Source of the DNA: Allocoleopsis franciscana PCC 7113 | GTDB lineage: Bacteria > Cyanobacteriota > Cyanobacteriia > Cyanobacteriales > Coleofasciculaceae | Reading direction: 5' to 3' | Assembly (NCBI RefSeq): GCF_000317515.1 | Contig: NC_019738.1 | Span: 4,490,001-4,554,000 of the forward strand | Length of the DNA stretch: 64,000 bases | Part shown: piece by piece, positions 3,146 to 26,354 of the stretch | Numbering within the stretch: the first letter of the stretch is position 1 | Layout of the letters: each line of letters starts with the position of its first letter | The notes under the pieces: generated by a model | Databases searched by the model: none | Told to the model about the DNA's origin: nothing | What the model saw: only the letters and a program-made list of their open reading frames with translations | Position numbers and translations under genes: made by a program

Positions 3146-3310
3146 ACTCAGAAATTGCCTTTTTTAATAGGCATGGTATTAGAAAAAACAATACAAGCGG
3201 CAAGAGTTGCCGATCCATCCTAATAGTTACGAAATGTTACAATGAGCAAAGCTGACCCGCTTCAATCAGGTTTCAGCGAAATCGCGTAGAGGATTTGAGA
3301 CAAAGTACTG

Positions 3311-23652: not shown

Positions 23653-23789
23653 AAAAAACCAGTCATTCGCGGTGACTGGTGAAAGCTGCTGTGTTGGAGG
23701 GAGAATACCTAGTACAAAGACACCTCAACCCTACCCAAGGTTAAGTTGATGAGCTAGGAAGCTCATCTTGCCTATGCCTCGGCTAGATG
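23653..23789 (-). ncRNA. Candidate small RNA with own promoter and terminator
   Basis: Between the kinase start (23398) and the M48-like gene (23919) no protein gene fits. On the minus strand, TTGCAA (23819-23824) and TACATT (23796-23801) are spaced by 17 bases like a sigma-70 promoter, predicting a start near 23789. The predicted RNA of about 137 bases has a 5' hairpin with an 8-base stem (GATGAGCT/AGCTCATC, 23748-23767), a pyrimidine-rich single-stranded stretch ATTCTCCCTCCAACA, and a terminator: 8-base stem ACCAGTCA/TGACTGGT (23658-23680) followed by six T. The gene upstream has its own terminator at 23893-23911, so this looks like a separate transcript. CTCCCTCC could pair with ribosome-binding sites. 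Confidence 0.6.
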
Positions 23790-23892
23790 TAAACAAATGT
23801 AACAATAAATGCTAAACTTTGCAATATTTCTTTACTTCTAGCGACAAGGGTGCGTGTCTCCGACAAGATTAATTCATCGGCGTTCTAGAGGA

Positions 23893-23918: not shown

Positions 23919-26354
23919 TCAGGCTTGCCAAATTTGGTAAGCTCCCCAGAGTGCCGCGACAAGGGCAAGCAGAGTCAGCCAGAGGGGATAGTTGGCTCGT
24001 GTCACTTTGCCACCTTGACTGCGTAGCGTTTCAATGTCAATCCAGGGTGTTACACCCCGGCGAAACCAGCCAGTCACGGTCACTTGCTGGTCTACTAAAT
24101 GGCTGGGACGAGTTGGCTTCGGTAAGATATTGCCCAAGGGGCCTAACAAGGATGAGAAGTGGAGTCTCACCAAACCCGTGGAGGTTTGCAAGATTAAGTC
24201 TTGTCCCAACCAGTTGAGTAAGCCGTGACGCCCTAAGAGTTTGCCCGTGATTTGAACCAGTTCACTATCGGGCGGGAGTGTTGCTGGATTGGAGAGAGAC
24301 TCTCCTAAGTTGGGTTCGGTTCGTACCGTGGACGGTTTAATGTCGGGAAAGTAGCGATTAATCCACAGGAATACACTGAGACTAAAGGCAACCAGAATGC
24401 AAGCGTCGAGAAACGGTCTAGCGTTGTGCATCCAGATCACTTGCCAAATGTTGAGCCAATCACCAATTTGTCCAATTGACCAAAAAACACCCCTGAGGAT
24501 AATACCGAGCAGCAACCCAAAAAAGACAGCACTTTGCAGTAGAGGAAAGGCTTTAGGAGCATTGACAAGTTTTAATATCCATGGGCCAAAAGTATGAACT
24601 GGGGGAGCGATGGGAGGTAAATTTAATTCAGGGTCAAGCTTCCAGAACTGGGCATTGCGACCCAGCATGGCGGCACGTTCCCCCAGTAGAGGATGGGAAG
24701 CACTGACGAGTAACCAGTCGCGGTAAGGATTGGTGCAGTCCCACTGTAAAACGGTTTCAAAGGGAGTGTGAGGAGAACAACTGCCAAAGAGCAGTGCCTG
24801 TCGATATCCTACGGGTAGCAAGAGGTCGAAGCTTTCCAAAAGTCCGCTTGTTTTGCGGTCGTGCTGGATTTCTTCTGTGATTCCCAAGGCCATTTTAAGT
24901 AAAGCGCGGGTCAATCCATTGGGATTGCCGGTTGTTTCTACAGCCATGCGATCGCTATAAAATACTCTCGCCCTGGAAAACCAGAGAAGCGGCAGGCGGA
25001 ATAACCAGTAAATGCCGTAACTAATAGAAGCGATTGTTCCGGTAATTCCCCGAACGATAGCCGGAAGAAATCGTTGATAAGAGGGCAGCTTACGCCCGAC
25101 AAAGTCGGCAAACTGCTCTCCTCCGTGAGCAACTAGCCAATAAATCGTGTAAGGGATTTGGATGACTAGCACGCCTAAAGACATGAGGATAATGTCCCAG
25201 TTGCGGATATGTCCCAACTGACCTGCGTAAATGGTGGCGATTTCGTTATCCGCCAGTTGCGTCAATAAGCCCTGACTCACGACAATTCGGGCAGTCCGGG
25301 GGAGATTGCCATAGGTGAGTGCCACTGGGGCATTGGTGGGTAAAATGCTCAGTGTAGGGATCGGAATTTTGCGTTGGCGGCAAAATCGTTGCACGACCTG
25401 GGCGGCTTCTGGATTGTTGGAGGCCAGTTGTGTTAGGGGTAAGCTCTCAAGACCATAAACTAATTTCAATAAAGCATCGATCAGCCAGGGAGAGAGAATC
25501 AGCAGGATGACGAAAACAATGGCGATCGCTTGAGCTGGGTCGCGGTAGAAAAGTTGGATGGGATAGAAGAAGGGCACCTGCACCAAGATGGCATTGGTTG
25601 TCTGCATCACGAAGCGCAGGAAGACTTGCACAACCAAAAATAGTGCGACAACGGTAACGGCTTCGACAAACCAAAGGCGTCTCAATTTTACAGGTTTGAG
25701 AGGACTCCAGTTTTCAGCACGTCCGCTGTTGCGCCATCTAGGGCGGGGGGTGAAGATTGAGGGAACGGGAGTTGAGGGGGGAGAGTAGGAAGCGGGAAGT
25801 AAGGATGGGTTTTCTGTTGTGGCGGCTGAATTGGAGCGAGAATTCCCTGATATCCCAGCATTTGCCAGCCTGCGATTGTTTGCGTTTGCTGGTGTCGGAG
25901 TGGTGCTTTTGGGAGTGTCCTGAGTTTTGGCGTTAGAAAACAGACGCTTGGTGGAATTTGCCAATCGCTGTGCAATGGCAGAGGGCGTCTTTTGTGAGGC
26001 AGTTTGTGTTTGAGATGGAGTTGGATTAAAAGGAACAAATCCTGTGGAGTCTGAAGCAGTGGCGCGGTTGGGGGTGGCTGGGACATTGGTGTTTAAGTCT
26101 GCCAGAGTACTCGTTGCCCATGCGCGGACGTTGGGGTCAGGATGCTGAGTGAGGTGTTGGCAAAGGGCGATCGCATTTTCCCAATCGCCGCTTCTTTGGT
26201 AAGCCGTTACAAGCGCTTGTGAAGCTTGAGTGACGAGAGACTCGTCTAACTCCGTCTCGCGCACAGCTTCGAGGTGAGCGATCGCATCTGAGTAATTTGC
26301 CTGTTGCAGGGCGTCAAGACCAGCATCAAGCGAAGGATTTGGAACAGCTCCCAT
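23919..26354 (-). CDS. M48-family membrane protein with a lost HExxH motif
   Basis: An 811-residue protein. Residues 1-110 form TPR-like helices (YSDAIAHLEAVRE; WENAIALCQHL), 110-215 are a Ser/Thr/Pro-rich linker, 225-300 hold two membrane segments, and about 310-520 are an HtpX/M48-type peptidase domain, followed by two more membrane segments (about 590-670) and a beta-rich C-terminal domain (about 690-811) ending in a membrane segment. At the place of the zinc motif AHELGHI the protein reads AGQLGHIRNWD (about residue 375), and FYSDR replaces the third-ligand ExxAD. Two zinc ligands or catalytic residues are therefore missing and proteolysis is unlikely. Probably a membrane scaffold or regulator. 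Confidence 0.82.
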   Translation of the reverse strand: MGAVPNPSLDAGLDALQQANYSDAIAHLEAVRETELDESLVTQASQALVTAYQRSGDWENAIALCQHLTQHPDPNVRAWATSTLADLNTNVPATPNRATASDSTGFVPFNPTPSQTQTASQKTPSAIAQRLANSTKRLFSNAKTQDTPKSTTPTPANANNRRLANAGISGNSRSNSAATTENPSLLPASYSPPSTPVPSIFTPRPRWRNSGRAENWSPLKPVKLRRLWFVEAVTVVALFLVVQVFLRFVMQTTNAILVQVPFFYPIQLFYRDPAQAIAIVFVILLILSPWLIDALLKLVYGLESLPLTQLASNNPEAAQVVQRFCRQRKIPIPTLSILPTNAPVALTYGNLPRTARIVVSQGLLTQLADNEIATIYAGQLGHIRNWDIILMSLGVLVIQIPYTIYWLVAHGGEQFADFVGRKLPSYQRFLPAIVRGITGTIASISYGIYWLFRLPLLWFSRARVFYSDRMAVETTGNPNGLTRALLKMALGITEEIQHDRKTSGLLESFDLLLPVGYRQALLFGSCSPHTPFETVLQWDCTNPYRDWLLVSASHPLLGERAAMLGRNAQFWKLDPELNLPPIAPPVHTFGPWILKLVNAPKAFPLLQSAVFFGLLLGIILRGVFWSIGQIGDWLNIWQVIWMHNARPFLDACILVAFSLSVFLWINRYFPDIKPSTVRTEPNLGESLSNPATLPPDSELVQITGKLLGRHGLLNWLGQDLILQTSTGLVRLHFSSLLGPLGNILPKPTRPSHLVDQQVTVTGWFRRGVTPWIDIETLRSQGGKVTRANYPLWLTLLALVAALWGAYQIWQA

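Follow-up and report, generated by a model that had tools for sequence, protein, structure and literature searches.

A conserved cyanobacterial small RNA gene with an HLR1 promoter site, probably a sister lineage of PsrR1

Introduction

On the minus strand of a 64,000-nucleotide stretch of the Allocoleopsis franciscana PCC 7113 genome (NC_019738.1, positions 4,490,001 to 4,554,000; hereafter the window), some 137 bases carry a promoter-like sequence, two potential hairpins and a T-run, and an initial annotation made from the letters alone read them as an independent, trans-acting small RNA (sRNA). The locus raises the question of whether these elements form a genuine gene and, if so, what its RNA would regulate and how it relates to the sRNAs already described in cyanobacteria.

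RpaB is a light-stress regulator. Its binding site is the HLR1 motif, and at promoters where HLR1 overlaps the transcription start (-38 to +23) RpaB acts as a repressor whose effect is lifted by high light (PMC13421787). The RpaB regulon of Synechocystis includes the sRNA PsrR1 (PMC13421787), which targets psaL, psaJ, chlN and cpcA (PMC6202907), with cpcB, apcE and apcF as further demonstrated or predicted targets (PMC6091082).

Results

Anatomy of the element

From promoter to T-run the element occupies positions 23824-23653 of the window, on the minus strand, and it comprises, together with its upstream neighbour, the following features.

23919..26354 (-): upstream neighbour, gene for an M48-peptidase protein (PF01435) of 811 aa
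23819..23824 (-): -35 element TTGCAA, recognized by sequence
23796..23801 (-): -10 element TACATT, separated from the -35 element by a 17-nt spacer
23786..23803 (-): HLR1 box GTTACATTTGTTTACATC, predicted RpaB site, overlapping the -10 element and the predicted start
23653..23789 (-): predicted sRNA transcript of about 137 nt, its start placed from the -10 element
23748..23767 (-): 5' hairpin GATGAGCT-TCCT-AGCTCATC, genus-specific
23688..23722 (-): conserved core TGTCTTTGTACTAGGTATTCTCCCTCCAACACAGC, predicted target-binding segment on the basis of conservation and apcF complementarity
23696..23703 (-): CU-rich anti-Shine-Dalgarno stretch CTCCCTCC, recognized by sequence
23653..23680 (-): intrinsic terminator ACCAGTCA-7 nt-TGACTGGT followed by T6, with a covarying 8-pair stem

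The TTGCAA-17-TACATT promoter (23824-23796), the 8-base 5' hairpin (eight perfect pairs at 23767-23748) and the 8-base terminator hairpin with its six T (23680-23653) are all present as the initial annotation had described them. Two of its other observations hold in part: the CU-rich stretch exists but is only partly single-stranded in the predicted fold of the window RNA (mean P(unpaired) 0.58), and the terminator ascribed to the upstream gene corresponds to an AACACA/TGTGTT stem (23911-23892) of only six pairs, weak and not called by the terminator scan. In the predicted fold only some 58% of the core as a whole is unpaired, which counts against its reading as a target-binding segment. None of 200 dinucleotide shuffles folds as well as the predicted 137-nt RNA (z -3.3), and the element is single-copy in the window genome. 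Short tandem heptamer-like repeats (TGCCTTC units) lie just downstream of the sRNA, at about 23565-23528.

Single promoter-like or terminator-like elements are expected by chance, so that it is conservation that decides on the reality of the gene. The terminator scan called two sites in the window where 0.8 were expected, and a terminator alone therefore proves nothing; likewise, the promoter hexamers fall below the threshold of that scan and are convincing because they are conserved across homologues.

Conservation across cyanobacteria

The search for homologues that the initial annotation had proposed was productive at the DNA level, yielding an element 91% identical in a same-genus relative and showing that the 3' part of about 70 nt (..TTCTCCTCCCAACACAGC.. 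and the terminator) is also present in other families. A covariance model built from this conserved 3' core (R1) was run against 386 cyanobacterial genomes: 77 have a match with E no higher than 0.01, and about 50 of the 386 hold an apparently genuine homologue (E 3.3e-4 or better). Matches in coding sequence and the weak matches of family f47 were discarded; those in G132 and G282, coding-like and devoid of HLR1 or terminator, were rejected, as was the match at G092:4756675. The family consensus reads gtctt....TtctcCTccCAACACAGCAag....aCCAGcC....GGCTGGTTTTT, and the seed in the window has drifted, with CTCCCTCCAACAC in place of CTCCTCCCAACAC, a point against its reading as a regulator of antenna mRNAs.

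Compensatory changes, which had been proposed as a check on both stems, were found in one of them. In the terminator, four of the eight pairs change on both sides, in 20 cells; slid controls give 0-1, and shuffles average 6.7. The 5' hairpin is lineage-specific: outside the window genome, the same-genus relative alone retains it, with seven pairs. The distance from HLR1 to the T-run is 118-141 nt in close homologues, as compared with the 137 nt predicted here, all starts being placed by prediction. With a single copy, a conserved promoter and terminator of its own and a deeply conserved core, the element is, with high probability, a genuine regulatory RNA gene that stands alone, as first proposed.

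The surroundings of the gene are conserved as well. An M48-peptidase gene is the upstream neighbour at 25 of the 42 homologous loci examined; 24 are followed on the same strand, some 450-950 nt away, by an RRM-protein gene, and 20 have both neighbours, spread over several families that include the Nostocales. The shared M48/RRM setting marks one old locus. Neither the window genome nor the same-genus relative has an RRM gene downstream, and in the window the next gene after the sRNA encodes a hybrid histidine kinase. The RRM RNA-binding protein found downstream of the core elsewhere measures about 165-190 aa (e.g., at L018, L035, L036, L057, L061, L381 and L386), and a functional link between it and the sRNA is conceivable.

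Promoter and HLR1 control site

The sequence GTTACATTTGTTTACAT at 23803-23787 is an exact match to the HLR1 consensus KTTACAWW-N2-KTTACAW over its 17 positions, at a background of 0.30 sites expected per window even with one mismatch allowed. In the same stretch, 46 of 56 homologous loci carry HLR1 at 14/16 or better (0.4 expected), and TTGCAA at 5/6 or better precedes the TACATT -10 element by 16-18 nt in 29 of 35 homologues (0.7 expected). With HLR1 lying over the predicted start, the published positional rule (PMC13421787) makes this a repressed, high-light-induced arrangement. Judging from the site and its placement, RpaB would bind the promoter and high light would induce the window RNA.

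HLR1-like sequences were also seen elsewhere. A second site, with one mismatch (GTTACGAAATGTTACAA), lies at 3226-3242 of the window on the plus strand, and a strong site is found at L031 (G000:C1:6371030-6371053), L013 and L022, conserved in other genomes, where the product of the gene behind it starts with MQDKQKVTLYLPP (MQEKQKVTLYLPP in one case).

Predicted targets

The apcF gene encodes a phycobilisome core subunit. When each genome's own core was compared with the leaders of that genome's own genes, apcF leaders (e.g., TTGTTGTTGGGAGAATAATTTAATGCGGGATGC) were found to complement the core from the Shine-Dalgarno sequence into the first codons. In seven genomes the native core-apcF duplexes reach -25 to -38 kcal/mol, energies attained by 0-2.7% of shuffled leaders, to be read with the provisos that they disregard target accessibility and that CU-rich sequences pair with many Shine-Dalgarno sites. 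Among local genes, apcF ranks 2/30, 1/25, 1/28, 8/31, 6/36 and 3/26 in six genomes (rank-product p 1.5e-4), the antisense strand of the sRNA itself taking first place in the 2/30 case. For the window genome the rank of apcF is 6/327 when a 46-nt segment is used but only 14/329 with the 25-nt core alone, which counts against apcF targeting there. Even so, a trans-acting RNA whose CU-rich segment would cover Shine-Dalgarno sites, as originally suggested, is the best-supported reading, given the complementarity of homologue cores to the Shine-Dalgarno and start region of apcF.

Other genes of the photosynthetic apparatus appear among the candidates in particular genomes: cpcA, cpcB, psaL and apcF are all within the top six in G031, and apcE ranks second in G023. 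The pairing of psaL is better in some relatives, such as G031, but weak in the window genome, and psaL was rejected as the main target there on its ranks of 220/327 and, with the 25-nt core, 288/329. Many relatives carry, beside a normal psaL, a second PsaL-family match (PF02605; L209, L225, L229 and others) within an open reading frame some 500 aa long. Searching the window genome for degenerate complements of the seed yielded no target set. The core also pairs fairly well with the purH leader (CAGGGGAGAATTC-ATG) in three genomes (L269, L211 and L221), and it is possible that purH is an additional target or that its leader simply has a strong Shine-Dalgarno sequence.

Relation to PsrR1 and other known sRNAs

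The Rfam check proposed at the outset (PsrR1, Yfr, NsiR) returned no match in the window. The PsrR1 model (RF02701) does not match there at its gathering threshold (42 bits) or at E up to 10, nor in homologous loci at E up to 0.5, nor in G000 at E up to 1; a permissive scan of the window with the whole of Rfam gave only a chance HIV_GSL3 match (E 4), and a model built from RF02701 matches finds no member of the window family. The Rfam models for Yfr1, Yfr2, Yfr10 and NsiR1 likewise match neither the window nor the family members scanned. Yfr1 and Yfr10 resemble the window RNA in having a CUCC-rich stretch near the terminator, and Yfr10 scores on the Picosynechococcus-like homologue alone, at 28.7 bits against a cut-off of 43 (E 0.54). 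ApcZ is similarly an sRNA linked to phycobilisome control; it derives from the 3' end of the apcABC mRNA and affects the expression of ocp (PMC8136909), whereas the window RNA has its own promoter.

RF02701 matches are absent from the window genome and strong in the Nostocales, often in several copies, and in a family that probably includes Synechocystis and Microcystis. At least nine Nostocales genomes (G092, G113, G165, G313, G369, G373, G387, G416 and G419) hold both types at separate loci, and RF02701 loci often have HLR1 but lack the M48/RRM neighbourhood. Among the f33 genomes, RF02701 is multi-copy in many Nostocales, with up to eight matches at E 1 or better within a single genome.

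The two families meet in G047 and G126, presumably Picosynechococcus relatives, where one locus each matches R1 (30.8 bits, E 2.6e-6) and RF02701 (31.4 bits, E 0.009 over all Rfam) in register, and where the core, GTCTTGACATTGAGTTTCTCCTCTCATACAGCAAG, combines features of both. This double match suggests a deep relationship between the families. A Nostocales RF02701 copy, L371, also gives a weak in-register match to R1 (17.1 bits, E 0.015).

The PsrR1 of S. elongatus is reported as 131 nt long, at 557,130-557,000 of PCC 7942. In G425, which we take to be an S. elongatus PCC 6301-like genome, HLR1 and terminator together located an RNA that begins with HLR1, carries TTCTCCTCC and agrees with the published length at about 131 nt (C1:1,063,750-1,063,880), likely the counterpart of that PsrR1, though its coordinates could not be matched to the published ones; the pattern CAACRCAGCA occurs in S. 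elongatus-like genomes only at other sites, apparently in coding sequence. This RNA, of about 131 nt against the 137 nt predicted for the window RNA, shares with the latter the HLR1 site, the TTCTCCTCC stretch and a terminator, and differs from it in having CTCGACTCAGC for CCCAACACAGC, a terminator of the RF02701 type and weak complementarity to apcF (p 0.2).

Compared with PsrR1 (SyR1) of Synechocystis sp. PCC 6803, the window RNA, with a predicted length of about 137 nt against 131 nt, is likewise free-standing, with an HLR1 control site at its promoter through which RpaB is predicted to act, a CU-rich core adjoining the terminator and predicted pairing with photosystem and phycobilisome mRNAs around the ribosome-binding site and start codon. 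It is set apart by its core (TTCTCCTCCCAACACAGC versus CATTGACATTGAGTTCTCCTA in PsrR1), its terminator (ACCAGCC versus CCTCGG), its own conserved neighbourhood, its coexistence with PsrR1 in the Nostocales, the lack of an RF02701 match and the weak psaL pairing in the window genome.

Discussion

The anatomy of the gene, its deep conservation, the conservation of HLR1 and promoter, the covariation of the terminator and the complementarity to apcF are established here. They lead us to consider it probable that the window encodes a stand-alone, RpaB-controlled and high-light-induced trans-acting sRNA that blocks the translation of antenna mRNAs in the manner of PsrR1, and that it probably represents a deep sister lineage of that RNA. 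In moderate light, RpaB bound to the HLR1 box over the -10 element and start would keep the gene off; in high light, dephosphorylation and release of RpaB would allow the sRNA to be made. The conserved CU-rich core would then pair with the Shine-Dalgarno sequence and start codon of antenna mRNAs, mainly that of apcF and, in some genomes, also those of apcE, cpcA, cpcB or psaL. Covering the ribosome-binding site would block translation, and antenna synthesis would fall in strong light. Pairing with antenna mRNAs and their repression in vivo are what the complementarity leads us to infer.

The origin of the RNA admits other accounts. It might be PsrR1 itself, an orthologous gene diverged in sequence, as its HLR1 promoter layout and predicted length (131 nt published for PsrR1) would allow; the Picosynechococcus-like homologue that satisfies both models, with a shared TTGACATTGAGTT(T)CTCCT, the HLR1-headed RNA of G425 with its TTCTCCTCC and the rarity with which both models match the same lineage outside the Nostocales all point in this direction. 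Identity with PsrR1 outright was nevertheless dropped, since RF02701 fails on the window RNA and yet matches elsewhere in the same Nostocales genomes, and orthology appears rather unlikely to us when neither RF02701 nor its derived model recovers the family, the two types occupy different loci in those genomes and RF02701 loci lack the conserved neighbourhood of the window type. The same coexistence, together with the different terminator stems and conserved seeds and the absence of any direct sequence match to PsrR1 except through the Picosynechococcus-like homologue, could be taken instead as the mark of a convergent HLR1-controlled family with no homology to PsrR1. The double match of that homologue at a single place and the in-register match of L371 make us doubt such convergence, and a deep sister lineage of PsrR1 remains the most likely assignment on the sequences compared.

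Two further accounts deny that there is a free sRNA of this kind at all. The RRM gene, on the same strand and some 450-950 nt downstream in 24 of 42 loci, invites the view that the element is its attenuated 5' leader, but the RNA persists without that gene in the window genome, the same-genus relative and several homologous loci, its terminator is complete and well conserved, and its core is complementary to apcF in trans, so that we give this account very little credence. That promoter-like and terminator-like sequences came together by chance, as the commonness of such single elements might suggest, is refuted by the conservation of the element in about 50 genomes, together with its promoter, its HLR1 site and a covarying stem, and the probability of this account is practically nil.

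The sister-lineage reading can be taken one step further, to a proposal that we advance tentatively: the window type would be a second ancient HLR1/RpaB sRNA, separate from PsrR1, fixed at the M48-RRM locus and aimed mainly at apcF, standing beside several PsrR1 copies in the Nostocales and serving as the sole such RNA in many filamentous lineages. Few RNA regulators of photosynthesis have been characterised, PsrR1 among them, and the curated RF02701 model of PsrR1 misses the whole window-type lineage. If confirmed, the present reading would mean that RpaB-sRNA feed-forward control of light harvesting reaches most filamentous orders by way of a differently shaped RNA, and the conserved apcF-complementary seed would provide a directly testable target, and the Nostocales, where one cell holds both of these related sRNAs, would allow the two to be compared in a natural setting.
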